From Verrucomicrobiia bacterium (lineage in GTDB: Bacteria; Verrucomicrobiota; Verrucomicrobiia; Verrucomicrobiales; Akkermansiaceae), in contig CANHQJ010000010.1 of the NCBI GenBank assembly GCA_947462875.1, positions 62,001-126,000 of the forward strand: 64,000 nt of DNA, given 5' to 3'. The notes under the pieces are model-generated. The model did no database searches and was not told where the DNA came from. It was given only the letters and a program-made list of their open reading frames with translations. Below, one piece after another: positions 38,852 through 56,574 of the stretch (its first letter is position 1; each line of letters opens with the position of its first letter). Made by a program: the position numbers and the translations under genes.

Positions 38852-39589
38852 TTATTGCTCCATTTGTTTTTTGAGGCGATTGATGTGACCATCGATGATG
38901 GCGGTATCGTCCGGAAACTCTTTTTTCATCTCTTCCAGTTTCTTGATCGCGCCCGCGTTGTCTTTTTTCATCATCAAGGGAACCACGTTCGTCTTGAAGT
39001 AGTTGGCGGTGGCCGCCTTTTTTTCTGCGGCCTTGGCGGCGGCTTCCACGTCATAGGTGCCGGCGATGATAGAATCGAGCAGGTCCTGTTTCATCGAGGA
39101 GGGGTGGCCGATCCAATTGACCTTGCCCTTGTGCACAATGAAGGCGCAGGGGATGCCATTTTGGCCAGCGGCCTTGAGCCAATCGTTGGCGATCACGCCC
39201 TCGCCATCGGCTGCGACGAGATAGCTCATCTTGTCACCTTGTTTTTCCACGAAGGCCTTGACCTCTTCCGGCTTTTTCTTTTCCCAGACGTTCACGCCGA
39301 TCACGGTGATCTTGTCTTTATTGGCCAAGGCGATTTCGCTGAGGTGGGGGAATGCGGCGATGCAAGGTCCGCACCAGGTGGCCCAGCACTCGACGATGTA
39401 GGTTTTCTCGGCGTCCATGGTCACGGCATCGCCTTTATACCAATCGGTGACTTTGAAGGCGGGAGCGGGGTCGCCGATTTTAAGGCCCTTGGCAGCGGCG
39501 GCGGCCGCAGGTTCCGCGTGAGCGGTCATCAGGGTGGCGGATACGGCTGCGAACGCCAGCGTGGTGGCGAGTTTGAGTGCGTTTTTCAT
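38852..39589 (-). CDS. Secreted TlpA/ResA-like thioredoxin-fold protein
   Basis: 245 residues from ATG 39589, giving the signal peptide MKNALKLATTLAFAAVSA...AHA. Residues about 40-180 carry a thioredoxin fold with active site CWATWCGPCIAAFPH and the cis-Pro region GIPCAFIVHKGK. The C-terminal 60 residues are helical and Lys-rich (KKDNAGAIKKLEEMKKEF). It is a periplasmic thiol-disulfide reductant, possibly for cytochrome c maturation. The gene lies 90 bp downstream of the cytochrome c-bearing dehydrogenase on the same strand, which supports that link. Confidence 0.85.
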   Translation of the reverse strand: MKNALKLATTLAFAAVSATLMTAHAEPAAAAAAKGLKIGDPAPAFKVTDWYKGDAVTMDAEKTYIVECWATWCGPCIAAFPHLSEIALANKDKITVIGVNVWEKKKPEEVKAFVEKQGDKMSYLVAADGEGVIANDWLKAAGQNGIPCAFIVHKGKVNWIGHPSSMKQDLLDSIIAGTYDVEAAAKAAEKKAATANYFKTNVVPLMMKKDNAGAIKKLEEMKKEFPDDTAIIDGHINRLKKQMEQ

Positions 39590-44734: not shown

Positions 44735-46891
44735 TCACGGCTCGCCGCGGGGGAAAATCGAGGCGATGTCGGTCTCGATTTTTTCATCCACCCATCGCTC
44801 GAGCGCGCCTTTCATGGCGGCGAGGACCTCGGGGTGCTGGGCGGCGACGTTGTGCTCGCAGTGCTTGTCTTGCGCGATGTGGAAGAGCCGGAAATGGCGG
44901 CCGCCATCGGCGCGCGGGGTCATGATGAGTTTCCAGCGCTCGGTGCGCAGCATGCGCTCTTTGGCATCGACGAGGCGTTGTTCATACTCGGGCTTGAGCA
45001 CGAAGTGGTAGTCGTAGCCGTCATCGATGAACGTGAGTTCGTCCATGGGCGGCAGGGGTGGGCGCTGGACGTTTTCCACGCGGAACTGGATGAAGGGAAA
45101 GCCGGTCTCGGCATAGAAGGGCTGCGAGCGGGCGGCCCCGGGATTCCCGATCCATGGGGCGAAACTTTTCCCTTCCCAGCCGGGGGCGGGCTTTTGTCCG
45201 AGCAGTTCCATCAGGCTAGGGGCGATGTCGATGCTGCGCACGATGTGCGGGAATGTCCGGGGTTGCTTGCCGGGAATGTGGACGATGAGCGGGATGTGGT
45301 TTGTCTGATCACCGCCGTGGAAGCTGAGACCGTGGCCGAGGGTGGCACCGGGTTCGTAGAGGTCATCGCCGTGATCGGAGCTGATGATGACGATGGTGTT
45401 CTGGTCGAGGCCGTATTTTTTGAGGGCGTCGAGCAGGCGTTTCACGCAGTCATCGAACTGCCGCGTGCAGCCATCATAGAGCGCGGAGATCTGACGGGCA
45501 TCCGCCGGGGTGAGTTTGTTCCATTTGTTTTCCAGATCGGTGCCGCCGATGAATTCATCGATATCGAAGTCCACCGAGGTTTTGTTTTTCCCCTGATAGG
45601 CCGGATCGGCAAACATGCTGTTGTAGGGTTCCACCGAGCGGTAGGGGAGATGGTTACAGGAATAAAACACATGGGAAAAAAACGGCTGACCGCTGGCGGC
45701 GACCCGGGCGAGTTGGTTTTCCACGCGCTTGGTCACCACTTCCGGTGTGACGAACTGGGCGAAGGACTCGATTTCCGGAAACACGAGAAAGCCGAGATCG
45801 TGATCGAAGTAGAGCGGCACGATGAAGTGTGCCATGATCACGGCCTGGCTCATGTAGATTTTGAAGCTATCGAACGAAGACACGCTCACCTCCTGATGGC
45901 CGAGCGGCATCATTTGGAAAAATCCCGCGCACCAGTCGCCGATGGCGGAGGTGTGGTAGCCGGCTTGGGCAAGCTGCGCCGCGAGAGGCTGGGCAAGTGC
46001 GGTGGTTTGGGCGACCTGGTCCTTGCCCGGATACATCTGACGGAAGCCGTGGCTGTGCGGGTAGAGAGAGGTGTGCAGGCTGGTGTTCGACTCCAGGGTA
46101 GAGGCGATGGGCGTGAAGCAATGGGTGAATACCTGCGACCGCACCGCGAGTCCATCGATGGTGGGGGAGACGCCGGAAGCGGCGGGGCCATCGCTGCGGT
46201 TCGGACGGTAGCCGGTGAAGCCGAGCCGATCGCCGCGCAGCGAGTCCGAGCCGATCATCAGCACGTTCCATGTTTTCTGCTGCGGGGAACCGATTTGTTT
46301 TGTCGTGAAAGGAAGCGCGCTGGACTGGCGCAGCGTCCAGGCGCTGGTGAGCAGCACGATGAGGATCAAGGCCACCCAGCGCAGTCGCGGCCGGTGTTGC
46401 CAGCGCTGCCAGTGCCACGCCAGGGCGAACAGCAGGGCGGCGATGGGCAGCAGGGTAAAGACAGCGGCATTCAGCCAGCGCGGGAACCAATCGCAGAGGT
46501 GATAGTACCATTGGCCGTATTCCGCTTCGCTGAGGAAATACGGACGGGTGGCACTGAGGCGCAGGACGAAAAACACATGCACCAGCCACAGCAGGGCCAC
46601 GGCGCGGGCGATGGACCAAGGGCCACGGCGTTCGCAGCGATTTTCCCACAGCGTCCACCACGGCAGAACCGCGATGACGGCCGCCAGCCCCAGCAACGCG
46701 TAGGCGAGACCGATGTAAAGGTTTTGTCCTAACAGGAATGCGAGGTGCTGCTCGCGGGCGAGGGCGCTGAATTTGTTTTCCATGCCGCCGGAGCTGGTCG
46801 CGAGGCGCACGATGCCCACGCCATAGTGAAACAGCAGGAACAGGAGCAGGCCGGTCAGGAAATGCCGGATTCTGGGCGCGTTGGGAGGCAT
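44735..46891 (-). CDS. Membrane-bound sulfatase-superfamily transferase with Thr nucleophile
   Basis: 718 residues. About five membrane helices in the first 210 residues are followed by an extracytoplasmic alkaline-phosphatase/sulfatase fold: GSDSLRGDRLG metal site and VIISSDHGDDLYE metal site. Aligned on L-x-T-x-x-YPHSHG, the formylglycine position of sulfatases (CxPSR) reads TLESN, so the nucleophile would be Thr. That is the pattern of lipoteichoic acid synthases and phosphoethanolamine transferases, not of sulfatases. It may modify envelope glycolipid with a phospho-group. It follows the single-pass protein gene by 4 bp. Confidence 0.78.
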   Translation of the reverse strand: MPPNAPRIRHFLTGLLLFLLFHYGVGIVRLATSSGGMENKFSALAREQHLAFLLGQNLYIGLAYALLGLAAVIAVLPWWTLWENRCERRGPWSIARAVALLWLVHVFFVLRLSATRPYFLSEAEYGQWYYHLCDWFPRWLNAAVFTLLPIAALLFALAWHWQRWQHRPRLRWVALILIVLLTSAWTLRQSSALPFTTKQIGSPQQKTWNVLMIGSDSLRGDRLGFTGYRPNRSDGPAASGVSPTIDGLAVRSQVFTHCFTPIASTLESNTSLHTSLYPHSHGFRQMYPGKDQVAQTTALAQPLAAQLAQAGYHTSAIGDWCAGFFQMMPLGHQEVSVSSFDSFKIYMSQAVIMAHFIVPLYFDHDLGFLVFPEIESFAQFVTPEVVTKRVENQLARVAASGQPFFSHVFYSCNHLPYRSVEPYNSMFADPAYQGKNKTSVDFDIDEFIGGTDLENKWNKLTPADARQISALYDGCTRQFDDCVKRLLDALKKYGLDQNTIVIISSDHGDDLYEPGATLGHGLSFHGGDQTNHIPLIVHIPGKQPRTFPHIVRSIDIAPSLMELLGQKPAPGWEGKSFAPWIGNPGAARSQPFYAETGFPFIQFRVENVQRPPLPPMDELTFIDDGYDYHFVLKPEYEQRLVDAKERMLRTERWKLIMTPRADGGRHFRLFHIAQDKHCEHNVAAQHPEVLAAMKGALERWVDEKIETDIASIFPRGEP

Positions 46892-50702: not shown

Positions 50703-50728
50703 GGCAGCTTCCCGCCGGAGCAGCTGCC
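50703..50728. terminator. Hairpin between convergent genes
   Basis: GGCAGCT (50703-50709) pairs with AGCTGCC (50722-50728) around a 12-nt loop, between the enolase-superfamily gene and the end of the four-gene operon. No T-run, so a weak candidate. Confidence 0.35.
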
Positions 50729-50749
50729 GTGGCTACCCGCGCCGTGTGA

Positions 50750-52138
50750 TCATTTTTTCGCTGGAGGCGGATAGAGGTTGAACTCGATGCGTGTGAAGGC
50801 GGCGGGATTGAACTGCGCGGTGCCGAAGTGCTGGCTGGTGCCGGTGATCTTGCCGTCTTCCGCGATGCCTTCCAGGCGGAAGGTGATGTAGTTGCCATCG
50901 GCGAACCAGGCGCGCACATCGCCGTTCTGCAGCAGGCGCTCGTCGTATTCCGAGGGCGCGAGGGCGAGCTTCTTGATGCGCGAGACAGGCAGGCGGATTT
51001 CATTGAAACGCGTCTTGAGAGTGAGTTCGCTCTGTTCGATTTTTTCGACCTTGCCGAGCACGATATCGCCATTGCGGAGGATGATGCGTTGCTCGTCGTC
51101 CTTCGGATCGGGGTTGTCGATGGGATTGCTCGGAACGCCGTTTTCCGCGCTGGGGAGGGTGCCGTCCCAGGTGGTGAGGAACATGCGCGAGACATTGACT
51201 TTGTAGCCGTTGCCAGAGCTCTGGCGGAGGTGGATGCAATTGCCGGCGAGGAAGGGCTTGTCCACATCGTTCCACTGCTGGACGAGGGTCTCATCCGAGT
51301 AGAGCGCCATGAGACCGGTGGTGGTATCCACAAACAGGCGCAGCTCGGATTTCTCCTTGCTGCGGAAGGCCTGATCGCGCTTGTATTCGCCGATCATGCC
51401 GCCATTGCGCATCATGCCGCCGAGCGCGTTCGCATCGGTGGAGCGCTTTTGCAAATACGAGGTGCCGTTGTCGAGCACGAGCATGTAGTGGTTGTCGGGC
51501 GTGTCCTCTGTGGCGCTATCGGCTCCGAAAAGGATTTGCAGACCGAAGCGGTTTTTCCAGGAGGCGGTGAAGCGGAAGCAGTAGCGCTCGGGGATTTTTT
51601 TGAAGTCCCTGGCCAGCGAACCACTGCCGCCGCCGGTGTAGGAGTTCTTCTCGAAGGTCCATGATTTTTCCGGGAAGATTTGCCAGTCATCCTCCTTGGC
51701 GGGACCGGTGTAAACGGCGGGGGAGACATCGGTGATTTCCAGATCCTTCACCATGTTGCGGTTGAGCTTCAGTTGGCCGGCATACCAGGTGTTGAGAATG
51801 ATGCTGTCCTGATTCACCGCCACGAGTTCACCCTCGATGACGTCGCCGGAGATGTTTTCGTTTTGCTGGCGGAGGTCGGGATTGAAACGGATGTGGGCGA
51901 TGTGGTCCTGGGCGGGTGGCGGAGCGATCTGCGCGGGGAAGGTGATGTCCTGCACCTGATTGAGAAAGAAGGGAGTTTCTTTTTTCAGGGTCGGGGATTT
52001 CCATTGCAGCATCGTATCATCGACACGGCCGAGATTGCCTTGCAGGCGATCGCCATTGGTGAAATTGAGCACGGGAAGCTCCGCTGCGGTGAGGACGCAG
52101 GGCAGGGCGAGCAGTGCGCGGGAAAGGAAAAGGTTCAT
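50750..52138 (-). CDS. Secreted beta-sandwich protein with NGD repeats, paralogue C
   Basis: 462 residues from ATG 52138 with the signal peptide MNLFLSRALLALPCVLTAA. N-terminal beta motif FTNGDRLQGNLGRVDD, then ITDV... and a central ConA/LamG-like sandwich (about 150-340: KKIPERYCFRFTASWKNRFG, LQILFGA, ELRLFVDTTTGLMALYSDE). A second NGD motif RIILRNGDIVLGKVEKIEQS lies near residue 370, and LLQNGDVRAWFADGNYITF near 420. It is the last gene of the operon and clearly homologous to the next two genes. No enzymatic residues recognised; a binding or surface role is inferred. Confidence 0.7.
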   Translation of the reverse strand: MNLFLSRALLALPCVLTAAELPVLNFTNGDRLQGNLGRVDDTMLQWKSPTLKKETPFFLNQVQDITFPAQIAPPPAQDHIAHIRFNPDLRQQNENISGDVIEGELVAVNQDSIILNTWYAGQLKLNRNMVKDLEITDVSPAVYTGPAKEDDWQIFPEKSWTFEKNSYTGGGSGSLARDFKKIPERYCFRFTASWKNRFGLQILFGADSATEDTPDNHYMLVLDNGTSYLQKRSTDANALGGMMRNGGMIGEYKRDQAFRSKEKSELRLFVDTTTGLMALYSDETLVQQWNDVDKPFLAGNCIHLRQSSGNGYKVNVSRMFLTTWDGTLPSAENGVPSNPIDNPDPKDDEQRIILRNGDIVLGKVEKIEQSELTLKTRFNEIRLPVSRIKKLALAPSEYDERLLQNGDVRAWFADGNYITFRLEGIAEDGKITGTSQHFGTAQFNPAAFTRIEFNLYPPPAKK

Positions 52139-52157
52139 GGCATGAAATGGGGCAGAA

Positions 52158-53468
52158 TTACGGGATGCGCGTGATTTCCGCGATGAGCGACGCCGCGATT
52201 TCCAGATCGCCCAGTTCCGGGTGCTTGGCGCGCAGCACACCGTCAGCGAGCGTGAAGGAATCGACATGCAAGGTGCCGGTGCCGTGCAGCTTGAGGCGGT
52301 AGGGGTGGGGAGTTTCCTTGGCATTTTCTCCCGCGAAGTAAATGACGGCCACCTTCGATCCTGGCAGCGGCTTGGGCGAGGGGTCGTGTGGATTTTCAAA
52401 CAGCACCTGCAGGTCCTTGCCGGGCGTGATGGATTTCAGCGTGCCGGACGAGCGATTGGACTCGATGTCGAACAACACGTCGCGCTTGGTGTCGGTGCGT
52501 TTTTCCATGCGTGCCTCGGCGCTGGCGGAGCCCCAGTTCGAGAGGCGGATGTCGGTGATGGTGTGGCGGTCTTCCGTGCCCGACGTGGAGACGAAGCTGA
52601 TGAGATTGCCCGAGGGCATGGGGCCGGTTTCGGCGGGGTCGATGATGTTATTGCGCATTTGTTTGCCATTGACGGCGAGCTGGAGCAGGCGGTTGCTGCG
52701 ATCCACGCGGATCTCCACTTCCATCTTGCTGTCCTCGACGTCATCGGGCGTGAAGTCATTGAACGAGGCGAGCGACGTGTATTTTTTGCTGCCCGTCGAT
52801 TGCCGCTTCAGCTCCAGGCCGCCGCTGTTGAACTGGAGAAAGTAGCAGTCCGCCGTGCCGTTGCCATCCGCCGAGGTGGAGGCGAAAAGGCACTTGATGC
52901 CAGCATTGCCCGTCCACTCGACGGTGAAGTTGAGAATGTAGCGCTCGGGGAGTTTTTCGAACTTGCGGTGAACGGAACCCCAGGCCTGCGAGACCAGTGC
53001 GTTGTCGAACTTCCACGCTCTGCCGGTCTGCCATTCGTTTTGATTGGGGCCGCGGTAGAGCACCATGTTTTCGCTGGTGCCGAAATGGAGGCAATCGATG
53101 GCGGTGCGGGCCACGGATTTTTTGCCCGACCAGGGCGACTCGAAGGAAAGTGTTTTATCATCGAGCTGCTCGACGGTGACGGGCAGCACATCGCCATTTT
53201 TCAGATAGAGAATGTTGTTGGTGCTGGCGGGGGCATCTTTGCTTTTTTCGAAGACGATCGATTCGAGCTGGTCACCCTGGAATTGCAGCAATTCGGGCGA
53301 AAGCGGAGAGCGCAGCGAGATCTCTTTTTCGGCGGAGACGGATTCGACGGTGCCCGTGATTTTTCCCTGGGCCCCGAGGGAGATCTCATCGGCGCAGAGC
53401 GAGCCGGCAGCAAGCAGGCTGCCGGCGAAAGCGAATCCGGTGTGGAGAAGTGGAAGGTTCGACATCAT
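52158..53468 (-). CDS. Secreted beta-sandwich protein, paralogue B
   Basis: 436 residues with a signal peptide ending SLCADEIS. The layout matches its two neighbours: an N-terminal repeat (LYLKNGDVLPVTVEQLDD), a central sandwich (FEKLPERYILNFTVEWTGNA, IKCLFAST, MEVEIRVDRSNRLLQLAVNG), and a C-terminal beta region (KRDVLFDIESNRSSGTLKSI). The first NGD motif is degenerate (GAQGKITGTVESV). The start overlaps the upstream stop by 4 bp. Function unknown; see the operon finding. Confidence 0.7.
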   Translation of the reverse strand: MMSNLPLLHTGFAFAGSLLAAGSLCADEISLGAQGKITGTVESVSAEKEISLRSPLSPELLQFQGDQLESIVFEKSKDAPASTNNILYLKNGDVLPVTVEQLDDKTLSFESPWSGKKSVARTAIDCLHFGTSENMVLYRGPNQNEWQTGRAWKFDNALVSQAWGSVHRKFEKLPERYILNFTVEWTGNAGIKCLFASTSADGNGTADCYFLQFNSGGLELKRQSTGSKKYTSLASFNDFTPDDVEDSKMEVEIRVDRSNRLLQLAVNGKQMRNNIIDPAETGPMPSGNLISFVSTSGTEDRHTITDIRLSNWGSASAEARMEKRTDTKRDVLFDIESNRSSGTLKSITPGKDLQVLFENPHDPSPKPLPGSKVAVIYFAGENAKETPHPYRLKLHGTGTLHVDSFTLADGVLRAKHPELGDLEIAASLIAEITRIP

Positions 53469-55072
53469 TTGTCGGGAGCGAGATTTTTTTCCTGATTGTT
53501 GTCCATCGTTTCGAGGAAGGGATTTTCATCGCTGAATTCAAGCGAGATGGCGGTGCTCAGGTCCACCGTCAGTTGCGCGGCGGTGGGATGGGTGAGCTTG
53601 AGCGCGTTTTTCTCCGAAACCAGAGGCAGGCCGCTGATTCTGCCCGAGGGGTAAAAACGGGCGGTCACCGTGCCCTCGGCCGGCTCCTTGGTTTCCGATT
53701 TGTCATTTTTCGCAAACACGATTTCCGAAATTTCCGTGAGCGGGATTTCCAGTTCGCTGTAGGTATTTTTGAAAAAGGCCTTGTTGTCCTTGATGGCGGT
53801 GATTTCGCCCGAGTAGCGGTCGGTGCCATTGCTGAGCAGGACGATGTCGCGCTTTTCGTGGCTCATGCTGTAGGCGCTGTCCTTGATGCCATTCCACTCG
53901 CTGATCACCAGATCGGAGAGGCGCATCGGAGCATTCGAATTGGTGCACTGGATGGCGAAACCATTGCCCAGCGGCGGAGCGGCGGCACCTTCTTCCTTGG
54001 CTTCCTCGGCATTTTTCAAACGATCGATGTCCTCCCACTGCGCGGCATACTGGCCGTTGATGAAAAGCATGAGCAGGCCTTTTTTGCGATCGCTGCGCAC
54101 CTCGATGGTCGCCTCGCCGGAGTCGGGAAGCTGCACGCTCGATTGGGTGTGCACCATGCGCTGCGAAATGGCCTGGCCGTTTTCGTCGTAGCCGCAGCGG
54201 GTGAGCGAGAAGTACGTTTGGTAGATATTCAGCACCAGAGCGTTGCCAAAAGTGCCTGCCTGGTTTTGCGGCATGCCGTTGAAAAACACCATCGGTTGGC
54301 GTCCATTGATGCCCGCTTTCTTGCCTTCCTTTTCCTCGCCTTCTTTCGGCTCGGGGGGCGGCATGAAATCGGCGTGCAAGGCGATGTTCGCATTGAGGCG
54401 CTCGCGCCAGGCCATGCGGAATCGCAGCAAAGTGCTCTCGCCGAGGCAGTTCTTGCGTGCGAGCGGCTGCATGCCTTTGAGGTGATACCAGGCGCTGCCC
54501 GCGTGTTGCCAGGCGGCGGGCTCTTTTTTCTCTTCCTTCTCACCCTCGGGCTTGTCCTTTTTCTCTTCCTCGGGATTGGCGTCGGCTTTTTTCACTTCCA
54601 CGCGCACGCCGCCGCTGCTGTTTTTGTCTTCGTATTTGAGAATTTCCCAGCCATCCGGCGAAAAAGGTCCGGCATACTGGAGTTTTCCGCCGAAGGGATT
54701 CGGGTTGATGGCGGCGACGCTTTCCGAGGGCAGGGTGATCTCGCCCACGGCATGACTGCGGATGCGGGTGCTTTTGTCGTCGAAGCTCAGGACTTCGCCG
54801 GGGATTTGATCGCCATTCTGCAGGGTGATGAAGGCATAGGAGCTCGGGTCTGTCTGCGGAAGGGCACCGCGCAGGATGACGTGGCGGACGTTTTCGGATT
54901 TCAGCGTCAAGGGGGCGTTGAGGTCATCGCGCGACCACAAAATGGCATTGCCCTCGCCGATGCCCTGGTAGTGGCCGTGGAGTTGGTCGCCATTGGTGAA
55001 GCGGAGGATGTCATCGGGCGCGGCGAAGGCGGCGGTCGATAACGCGAGGAGCGATAAAAAGGTGCGGTTCAT
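53465..55072 (-). CDS. Secreted beta-sandwich protein with charged insert, paralogue A
   Basis: 535 residues from ATG 55072, giving signal peptide MNRTFLSLLALSTAAFAAP. N-terminal motifs LRFTNGDQLHGHYQGIGEG and ITLQNGDQIPGEVLSFDD are a tandem pair. A long Glu/Lys-rich insert (about 175-200: NPEEEKKDKPEGEKEEKKE) precedes the sandwich (LLRFRMAWRERLNANIALH, ATIEVRSDRKKGLLMLFING). A further repeat SNGTDRYSGEITAIKDNKAF follows near residue 435. It has the longest sandwich domain of the three paralogues. It starts 17 bp after the toroid gene. Confidence 0.7.
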   Translation of the reverse strand: MNRTFLSLLALSTAAFAAPDDILRFTNGDQLHGHYQGIGEGNAILWSRDDLNAPLTLKSENVRHVILRGALPQTDPSSYAFITLQNGDQIPGEVLSFDDKSTRIRSHAVGEITLPSESVAAINPNPFGGKLQYAGPFSPDGWEILKYEDKNSSGGVRVEVKKADANPEEEKKDKPEGEKEEKKEPAAWQHAGSAWYHLKGMQPLARKNCLGESTLLRFRMAWRERLNANIALHADFMPPPEPKEGEEKEGKKAGINGRQPMVFFNGMPQNQAGTFGNALVLNIYQTYFSLTRCGYDENGQAISQRMVHTQSSVQLPDSGEATIEVRSDRKKGLLMLFINGQYAAQWEDIDRLKNAEEAKEEGAAAPPLGNGFAIQCTNSNAPMRLSDLVISEWNGIKDSAYSMSHEKRDIVLLSNGTDRYSGEITAIKDNKAFFKNTYSELEIPLTEISEIVFAKNDKSETKEPAEGTVTARFYPSGRISGLPLVSEKNALKLTHPTAAQLTVDLSTAISLEFSDENPFLETMDNNQEKNLAPDK

Positions 55073-55089
55073 GGCAAACAGAGGGTATT

Positions 55090-56067
55090 TTATTTTTCGT
55101 AAATGGGCAGGAAGCGGTAATTCAGAGCGAGAGAAAGGAGAGCGCCGGAGGTATTGAAAGCGTAGCCCATGCGGCCCGGCCAGGAGCCATCGGGCGATTG
55201 CAGGGTGGCCATCAGCTTGATGTTTTTGGCATTCCATTCTTCCCAGACTTTCTGGTCGGCATGGAACAGGGCCTGCGACATGTAGTATTCGAAGTAAAAC
55301 GGATAATACGGCTCGCGGTAGTTGATGTGATTTTTCAGGTAGGAGAGGCTGGCGGCGTAGCCCTTGCCGTCCTTTTTCTTGGCCAGCGACAGGCAGAGCG
55401 ATCCGATGGCGGTCAGCGTCGGCTTGCCACCACCGGCGGAGGTGTAGCCGTAGCTGCCATCGGCACTGCGGCAGCGCTCCATGTAGGTGAGGGCGTTCTT
55501 GATCGCTTCATCCGGCACGGAAATGCCCGCATTGCGCGCGGCGAGCAGGGCGACGATCTGGCAACCGGAGACGGTGGTATCGGCGTCCGAGGCATCGGGG
55601 GTGTAGCGCCAGGCCTTGAAGCGATTGCGTTTCTGCGCGGAAAGGATGAGATCGACGGCTTTTTTCAGCGCCGGGGCGAGTTTCGGGTGATCGATCATGC
55701 CATACGCCTCGCACAGCGCCAGGGTGGCGAAGCCATGGCTGTACATGCTGGTGCCGATGTAGCCGTTGGTGGAGTTTTGCTGGGAGAGGATGTAGTTGAT
55801 GCCGCGCTCGATGTTTTTCGCGTAGGGGCCGTGGTTCGGGTCCTCGCCGTGGGCGAGAAAGGCGATGGTCGCCAGTCCGACGACTCCCGGTTCATTTCCC
55901 TGCGAGTCTTCCCAGCACCCTTCCTTGGTTTGTTTAGTGGCGAGAAAGCGCAGGCCGCGCTCATACATCTGCTCCACCTGGGCGGGGACGTTGTCGTCCT
56001 GCCGGCGCGGCAAATCCTGTGCGAATGCCGATGTGAGCAGGACCAGTGGAAGTAGGGTGCGGATCAT
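55090..56067 (-). CDS. Secreted alpha6/alpha6-toroid (prenyltransferase/squalene-cyclase-like repeat) protein
   Basis: 325 residues with signal peptide MIRTLLPLVLLTSAFAQ. Repeats with the Q-x-x-x-G-x-W/Y pattern are visible: ATKQTKEGCWEDSQ, LSQQNSTNGYIGTSM, CRSADGSYGYTS, LQSPDGSWPGRMG. These are QW-like motifs of terpene-cyclase, prenyltransferase and alpha-macroglobulin/TED-type toroids. The acidic DxDD or Cys-Gln thioester active sites are not obvious, so it is more likely a binding or structural protein than a cyclase. It is the first gene of the four-gene operon and its stop is 17 bp before paralogue A. Confidence 0.75.
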   Translation of the reverse strand: MIRTLLPLVLLTSAFAQDLPRRQDDNVPAQVEQMYERGLRFLATKQTKEGCWEDSQGNEPGVVGLATIAFLAHGEDPNHGPYAKNIERGINYILSQQNSTNGYIGTSMYSHGFATLALCEAYGMIDHPKLAPALKKAVDLILSAQKRNRFKAWRYTPDASDADTTVSGCQIVALLAARNAGISVPDEAIKNALTYMERCRSADGSYGYTSAGGGKPTLTAIGSLCLSLAKKKDGKGYAASLSYLKNHINYREPYYPFYFEYYMSQALFHADQKVWEEWNAKNIKLMATLQSPDGSWPGRMGYAFNTSGALLSLALNYRFLPIYEK

Positions 56068-56178: not shown

Positions 56179-56574
56179 TCAAGTTTCTTGCGGGGATTCC
56201 GGCTGGTTCCGCATGAAATCGGCAATTTGGAAAAAAAAGCTGTCGAGCCACTCGCGGGAACGGCCGGAGATCCCCGTTTCGTCCATGGCCTGCGCCATCA
56301 GCGCCAGCCAGCGATCGCGCGCGGCGGCATCGATGCGAAACGGCATGTGGCGCATGCGCAGGCGGGGGTGGCCGCGTTTGAGCACGTAGGTCGGATCCTG
56401 CGCGATGCGGAACCACAGGAACTCGCGCAGCCGCTCCTCGCTGCCTTCCCAGTCGTCATCGGGATACATCGGGCCGATGAGGTCATCGTGGCGTACGAGT
56501 CGATAAAACGCCGCGACCATCGCCGCGATGCCGGGTTTGCCGATCTCGGCGATGACAGTGGATTCGTCGGACAT
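56179..56574 (-). CDS. Group II truncated haemoglobin-like protein
   Basis: 131 residues, the usual length for a 2-on-2 globin. The proximal His is in LRMRHMPFRID, and FYRLVRHDDLIGPMYPDDDW covers the B/E helices, quoted as the region about 23-42. The W in DRWLALMAQAMDE is the conserved TrpG8-type residue of group II. It probably binds oxygen or nitric oxide, for detoxification or oxygen supply in the cytoplasm. It stands alone, convergent with nothing, between the operon and trpD. Confidence 0.82.
   Translation of the reverse strand: MSDESTVIAEIGKPGIAAMVAAFYRLVRHDDLIGPMYPDDDWEGSEERLREFLWFRIAQDPTYVLKRGHPRLRMRHMPFRIDAAARDRWLALMAQAMDETGISGRSREWLDSFFFQIADFMRNQPESPQET

Follow-up and report, generated by a model that had tools for sequence, protein, structure and literature searches.

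What could be the task of four exported proteins that are encoded in one tight run, three of them copies of one another and the fourth a toroid? The question is raised by a 64,000-nucleotide stretch of DNA from a Verrucomicrobiia bacterium of the family Akkermansiaceae (contig CANHQJ010000010.1, positions 62,001 to 126,000), the whole of which is called the window here. All four genes lie on the minus strand. TOR (55090-56067) encodes a single-domain (alpha/alpha)6 toroid of 325 residues, modeled with the fold of domain 1 of squalene-hopene cyclase. It is followed by three NGD/sandwich proteins, A (53465-55072, 535 residues, with a Glu/Lys-rich insert), B (52158-53468, 436 residues) and C (50750-52138, 462 residues). 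The gene coordinates give intergenic distances of 17, -4 and 19 bases, as described in an earlier note made from the sequence alone (the original prediction), which had proposed a heteromeric extracellular complex and named no function for it. A signal-peptide-like stretch was recognized by eye at the N-terminus of each protein, and export of all four is likely. The genomic link of the unit to operons of the MoxR/Bat type is well supported, and the statement that no function could be named is thereby narrowed to the exported part of an operon of the MoxR-DUF58-BatA-DUF4175 type. The explanation that we favor, with confidence just short of even, is that TOR, A, B and C form the arm of a MoxR/Bat-type envelope machine that is exported, most likely into the periplasm.

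Conservation of the unit and its link to MoxR/Bat-type operons

Conservation was assessed in 70 loci obtained from one scan of genome contigs with C orthologues. Since the loci were found by C, the presence of C itself is uninformative, while that of TOR, A, B and the upstream gene c1 is informative. By their titles the loci are mostly from Akkermansiaceae or other Verrucomicrobia, including Luteolibacter, Haloferula and Roseibacillus. Separately, metagenome genomes of the window's genus (L127-L129) carry the title Akkermansia muciniphila, although the presumed MucT genome belongs to another genus, and these titles look misassigned. Six-frame translation placed TOR-A-B-C in this order on one strand in 62 of the 70 loci. 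The genes c1 and c1s were also found upstream in 53, c1 encoding a DUF4175-like, putative membrane protein with a long coiled part and c1s a small exported protein. Six of the eight exceptions run off the contig (L132, L133, L135, L165, L184 and L196), and L146 has B and C but no A in the 1.8 kb seen upstream. The four genes are kept together in related genomes and not scattered, in keeping with the original prediction.

Across the order, at an E-value of 0.001, A matched 66 and C 53 of 141 genomes. Among 40 loci selected by hand from the order's matches, TOR was followed by an NGD/sandwich protein in 38 and c1 was on the stretch in 35. The loci lacking c1 are three from the window's genus, L091 (at a contig start) and L106; those lacking TOR are L091 and L098. 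At 1e-6 the C profile matched 52 of the 288 genomes of the phylum that were searched, 26 from the order and 26 from outside the class, with no match in the other orders of the class. One locus was taken from each of 20 of the 26 genomes outside the class, and in 11 of these TOR adjoins one to three NGD/sandwich proteins, ten with c1 and one (L263) cut at TOR.

The fullest operon seen consists of a MoxR ATPase, DUF58, a BatA-like protein, c4, c1, c1s, TOR and then between one and three NGD/sandwich proteins or a single fused protein. MoxR-DUF58-BatA-c4 lies uninterrupted upstream of c1 in two genomes (G021, L122/L103; G003, L123/L104), and the run to TOR is likewise unbroken in G083 (L094), where it opens with a MoxR piece at the contig start, and in G102 (L126/L101), where the contig ends and the run starts at DUF58. 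Outside the class, L267 and L270 show the unbroken order MoxR piece-DUF58-BatA-c4-c1-TOR-NGD, and L256 the same run beginning at DUF58. In G108 (L121/L102) and G004 (L124/L110) the same four genes are upstream of c1 with small genes interspersed; a stretch from G019 (L125) held no recognizable operon parts. BatA was identified by Pfam in L094 (PF07584, 8.7e-16) and in G108, and elsewhere by BLAST. By eye, c4 is a vWA protein, and it was also taken as amidotransferase-like (GATase1_like, 0.0076, is below cut-off); c1, the BatA-like protein and c4 have membrane-type N-termini; the role of c4 and the membrane nature of c1 are thus read from sequence. In family f1 the gene ahead of c1 varies, being a metallo-beta-lactamase-fold gene in six loci, and the MoxR set is elsewhere in the genomes checked. 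G100 has MoxR-DUF58-BatA-c4 (L220) separate from c1-c1s-TOR-A-B-C (L077).

The Bat (Bacteroides aerotolerance) operons and the Cmd operon of Rhizobium (RL3499-RL3502) likewise hold a MoxR ATPase, DUF58 and a BatA-type membrane protein together (for the latter, in part PMC5700661). In contrast to these, the operons described here have c4, the DUF4175-like c1, TOR and one to three NGD/sandwich proteins added, and their parts are split in the window's genome. Two paralogous operons in that genome, on contigs C18 (L216, genes 3-8) and C2 (L217, genes 2-8), have the order MoxR-DUF58-BatA-c4-c1-like-TOR, with an extra gene before TOR on C2, and no NGD/sandwich gene was detected in either. Their c1 relatives match DUF4175 at 8.2e-7 (27.9 bits, cut-off 27.3) and 0.0023 (below cut-off) and are tied to c1 by BLAST (21-23% identity, 1e-7). 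Inspection of the C2 operon by eye showed a SASA-type hydrolase-like gene before TOR and transglutaminase-like and thioredoxin/TPR-like genes after it. A search of the window's genome with C, at E-values up to 10, returned four matches, all of them operon members (C10:112753-117054), and TOR has nine matches there.

Joint presence and absence were examined in the genus Akkermansia. TOR, c1, c4 and an NGD/sandwich protein occur together in 13 of 23 genomes and are all missing from the other 10, the NGD absence in one of them (G114) being taken from the order-wide A and C searches and not from the phylum search with the C profile. The c4 gene lies apart on the chromosome (2.21 Mb vs. 2.97 Mb in G010), so the joint presence is not merely physical linkage. 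Among the other genomes of the family that were searched, both c4 and NGD proteins were found in 19 of 19.

Folds and conserved residues of the exported proteins

The three NGD/sandwich proteins were compared by hhalign using alignments of 45 (A), 46 (B) and 63 (C) sequences. The probability was 100 for each pair, with E-values of 5e-50 over 408 columns for A-B, 4.6e-55 over 429 columns for A-C and 3.7e-54 over 402 columns for B-C. The proteins are homologous across nearly their full length, well past chance, and the paralogy proposed in the original prediction is upheld. In a FastTree phylogeny of 64 modules, whose deeper nodes are weak, A, B and C each form one clade across nine genomes of the family (the window's and eight others, none of them Akkermansia), with support of 0.949, 0.955 and 0.991, respectively, indicating that the three copies predate the split of those genomes. 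L089 (family f6) has three copies, of which one groups with A (support 0.772) and another with C (support 0.878). The two Akkermansia copies do not fit this pattern cleanly, one group standing beside B (0.825) and the other beside L100 (0.885). A clade of 29 (0.951) unites C with most proteins from outside the class, although the three of L271 fall elsewhere, and C is the copy nearest to most of the single-copy forms found there.

The AlphaFold2 model of C is nearly all beta, with a predicted local distance difference test score of 84.4 and a predicted TM-score of 0.74. It contains a sandwich of the ConA/legume-lectin-like type (residues 137-327, 51158-51730) flanked by four small barrels of 48-60 residues each: repeats 1 (residues 21-69, 51932-52078) and 2 (79-138, 51725-51904) before it, and repeats 3 (348-396, 50951-51097) and 4 (405-456, 50771-50926; degenerate) after it. 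The closest match of the sandwich was 1oq1 (Z 17.3, root-mean-square deviation 2.4, 171 residues aligned, 16% identity), and 741 of the 1000 top Foldseek-ranked chains had a Z of at least 8, with the same best value. The fold is that of the ConA-like sandwiches 1oq1 (B. subtilis, galectin-like), CBM66 and ERGIC-53, although in C it is flanked by the barrels. The sandwich core foreseen in the original prediction is therefore supported; the NGD repeats that it described are present, but they amount to four barrels, two on either side of the sandwich.

These repeats look like SH3/Sm-type barrels in the model, for which the profile evidence is weak. Family profiles for Sm D1 and Hfq-like proteins gave E-values of 0.7-2, and the repeat profile of the barrels had a best match at 0.29. 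Among the 63 C orthologues, LSM was matched by one (0.0021) and RimP by 13 (8e-5), with cut-offs not shown. No named family in Pfam or NCBIfam was matched above cut-off by A, B or C, although weak matches were found below the cut-offs. Trp, Gly and Tyr account for many of the invariant positions in C. In the Foldseek results for C, the first seven rows and many below were clostridial neurotoxin receptor-binding or NTNH chains. A relation to these toxins was set aside as a shared fold, the query TM-scores being 0.23-0.29, and the dozens of lectin-type sandwiches listed by VIA included one clostridial-type chain (Z 15.7).

The model of TOR has a short N-terminal helix and then twelve main helices (predicted local distance difference test score 89.3, predicted TM-score 0.87). 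The best fold match was squalene-hopene cyclase, 2sqc (Z 26.3, root-mean-square deviation 2.8, 273 residues aligned, 17% identity), model residues 28-324 being placed over residues 8-630 of the chain. We take the span matched to be domain 1. Other class II cyclases fall within Z 1 of this value, and epimerases and GH76 come next. The QW-like toroid repeats noted in the original prediction were borne out by Pfam (SQHop_cyclase_C, 1.5e-9, 37.8 bits vs. a cut-off of 26.1). Squalene-hopene and oxidosqualene cyclases, which share the alpha/alpha toroid and QW-type repeats with TOR, end in a C-terminal YR..FP tail that resembles YRFLPIY of TOR.

Residue conservation was examined in 43 TOR sequences, 37 from the order and six from outside the class that were picked for their length and for a YR close to the C-terminus. 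Invariant residues include Y109 and H111 in the M-Y-S-H segment (residues 108-111, 55735-55746) at the start of inner helix 2, E120, and W153, R154, Y155, P157 and D163 in WRYTPDASDADTT (residues 153-165, 55573-55611) before inner helix 3, in which D161 is identical in 41 of 43. Y258, Y261, Y262 and Q265 at the start of inner helix 5 (residues 258-265, 55273-55296) are also invariant, as are T306, L320, P321, Y323 and E324. The tail NYRFLPIYEK (residues 316-325, 55093-55122) is near-invariant in a set of which six were selected partly for it. Most invariant residues are also present in the two paralogous TORs, which retain the tail core R-x-[LI]-P-I-Y. Many of them fall in the opening turn of inner helix 2, 3, 5 or 6 and probably lie on one rim, a placement made by helix order and not from coordinates. 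The mean column identity is 68% for TOR (49 sequences) and 35% for C (63 sequences). The conserved residue set suggests that TOR binds a ligand or changes it.

The original prediction saw a toroid without an obvious cyclase or thioester active site. It was right about the latter, as no CxEQ motif was found by reading and TED_complement (0.052) is below cut-off, and a thioester protein was rejected; the toroid is not featureless, however, given its invariant polar residues. D161-A-D163-T was considered as a DxDD motif and dropped, because by helix order this DxD-T motif is before inner helix 3 and not 2. By the same reckoning SMYxH would occupy the place that we take DxDD to hold in squalene-hopene cyclase.

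A truncated hemoglobin gene (56179-56574; Bac_globin, 2e-22) lies on the same strand 111 bases upstream of TOR, and a homologue adjoins the operon in two loci of the window's genus (L072 and L073). A promoter scan gave 1 site vs. 1.3 expected, and 16 terminator-like sites were found vs. 8.6 expected, most of them within genes; one, at 50728-50746, is beyond the end of C on the opposite strand. None of these sites was used. Outside the class, in family f26, L262, L265 and L268 carry a solo NGD/sandwich protein with no TOR; by eye, a queG-like gene and one for a conserved exported protein lie near it.

A proposed envelope machine and its alternatives

How might the exported unit work with the rest of the operon? 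MoxR rings are thought to act via a vWA partner, as NorQ does via NorD, and together, as with NorQ/NorD and RavA/ViaA, they remodel a target (PMC9976466). By analogy with NorQ and NorD, a cytosolic MoxR ring would act through the membrane vWA proteins and c1 on a periplasmic complex, assembling or remodeling it. The coupling would run through DUF58, the BatA-like protein, c4 and c1 to TOR, A, B and C at the exported end. One difference is that NorQ and NorD act on a known target and are described as lying most likely in the cytosol, whereas the presumed target here is an exported assembly. On this view the rim of the toroid would carry a conserved polar pocket. A, B and C, as lectin-like arms with SH3/Sm-like barrels, would dock TOR and attach to one another, to the wall or to a surface glycan, and the machine may serve envelope integrity under stress.

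A more specific form of this explanation, which we regard as doubtful, is that one branch of MoxR/Bat operons ends in an exported effector. In it, a cyclase-derived toroid with an invariant His/Asp/Tyr/Arg rim would bind or modify a periplasmic ligand such as a lipid-linked or wall glycan. Up to three arms would make up the lectin/barrel scaffold that holds the toroid, and the drive would come from the cytosol via the DUF4175-like and vWA membrane proteins.

Published work gives a setting for such a machine. The function of the Bat proteins is called elusive and an envelope complex has been proposed (PMC3557215). Envelope defects were reported for Rhizobium RL3499-RL3502 mutants, as related in PMC5700661, which treats this operon and BB0173. 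AdvA, a DUF4175 protein, is called a critical division protein (PMC7481262). No paper naming the present operon was found in a literature search that covered subscription journals thinly.

Several observations weigh against the envelope machine. The c1 protein of this operon has no DUF4175 match of its own. In the window's genome the set is split over three places, and MoxR, c4 and c1 are not neighbors of the unit in the window; MoxR-DUF58-BatA-c4 is on contig C19 (AAA_3, 2.3e-62; DUF58, 2e-47), stopping 257 bases short of the contig end, and c1 with c1s is on C9, this c1 being 57% identical to that of G100. The upstream DNA was examined in few genomes. The unit itself is incomplete in L151, which lacks A, in L098, which has c1 and a fused protein with no TOR, in L106, which has TOR and a fused protein with no c1, and in nine of the 20 loci outside the class, where the NGD/sandwich protein has no TOR on the stretch. 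In Akkermansia, BatA-c4 occurs without MoxR or DUF58 alongside in L221 (G010, 20 kb) and L274 (G057, 15 kb), which would require an ATPase supplied by a different operon, and G010 does have one that holds MoxR-DUF58 (L222). A single loss in one clade of small genomes may account for the ten Akkermansia negatives. Furthermore, deletion of bat in Leptospira biflexa gave no growth, shape or oxidative-stress phenotype (PMC3557215). In both L221 and L274, BatA-c4 is beside a ParB-like gene by eye.

The possibility was also considered that the arm serves thiol-redox quality control, keeping periplasmic proteins reduced or isomerized, as once proposed for Bat. The active part would then be a fused thioredoxin, with A, B and C as substrate-binding arms working with a separate thioredoxin in this family. 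The evidence comes from the sister families f2, f3 and f4, in which one protein of 928-1403 residues replaces A, B and C. Each of 19 fused proteins (two in L102) has two modules, whole or partial, most clearly in L106 (residues 6-423 and 426-878) and L100 (93-505 and 511-969). A C-terminal WC[GA]PC thioredoxin motif is present in 17 of the 19, and those scanned by Pfam match AhpC-TSA/Redoxin (L092, 1.2e-20; L102, 3.8e-22); L102 also matches ResA at 2.7e-24, yet below the cut-off of that model. A reducing-power hypothesis for Bat is on record as well (PMC3557215). However, the motif was not found in L100 and L106, A, B and C of the window lack a thioredoxin domain, and the bat mutants of Leptospira were not oxidant-sensitive in the same source. 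An exported TlpA-like thioredoxin, recognized by eye, is encoded in the window (38852-39589), but it is 11 kb from the operon and may or may not substitute for the fused domain. Redox quality control is unlikely, a little more so than the effector described above.

The fused forms also bear on location and assembly. The two-module fusions and the joint presence or absence in 23 genomes make the heteromeric complex of the original prediction plausible. Its extracellular placement is less likely than a periplasmic one, given the membrane-type N-termini of c1, the BatA-like protein and c4 and the ResA/TlpA-like thioredoxin in most fused forms.

Less likely again is a stand-alone glycan complex, in which lectin-like A, B and C would hand a polysaccharide to TOR acting as an (alpha/alpha)6 enzyme of the glycoside hydrolase or epimerase kind. 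The sandwich of C does resemble 1oq1, CBM66, levanase and sialidase accessory domains (Z 14.3-17.3), TOR matches GH76 and sugar epimerases (Z 22.6-24.9), and a sulfatase gene is near the operon (44735-46891). However, the conserved neighbors are MoxR/Bat-type parts and not sugar genes, and no carbohydrate family of Pfam or NCBIfam was matched above cut-off by A, B or C, one of the 63 C orthologues touching Laminin_G_3 weakly.

That TOR is a terpene cyclase for a hopanoid-like lipid, as automatic names have it, is very improbable despite the 2sqc fold, the SQHop_cyclase_C match and the retained DxD-T motif, since TOR has one toroid domain where class II triterpene cyclases have two (325 vs. about 620-730 residues), its signal-peptide-like N-terminus points to export, its score with the hopene_cyclase model is 37.8 bits vs. 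a cut-off of 431.1, and SMYxH appears to stand in place of DxDD. No hopene cyclase at 1e-60 or above cut-off was found among 38 genomes from the order (eight Akkermansia genomes included, G057 excluded), in a search without a positive control, as none of 14 control genomes passed.

The set in Akkermansia

Genome G057 is probably Akkermansia muciniphila MucT. It carries c1-c1s-TOR-NGD-NGD at 2,410,617-2,417,741 and BatA-c4 at 165,259-169,436. TOR-like matches were found at 2.414 Mb, at 1.345-1.347 Mb (two neighbors) and at 0.617 Mb. By rough position only, these sites fit the order of the tags AMUC_RS10605, RS06010/RS06015 and RS02875; the RS03775/RS03780 pair had no counterpart among the TOR-like matches of G057. 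Terpene cyclase/mutase genes of Akkermansia have been called hopanoid genes in one study, in which ox-bile raised them slightly (log2 0.21-0.27; PMC7671984). We suspect that these genes belong to the TOR toroid family. Elsewhere in the genus, G080 has a tandem duplicate of TOR (C1:2922548-2924471), and in G010 a 77-residue C-terminal piece of TOR precedes the full copy (L086:6747-6980).

A set of exported proteins that accompanies one branch of Bat-type operons can now be named. If the effector reading were true, operons of unknown function would gain a molecular output, with a five-gene version in what is probably A. muciniphila MucT. In Akkermansia, a tractable gut bacterium, genomes have either the whole set or none of it.

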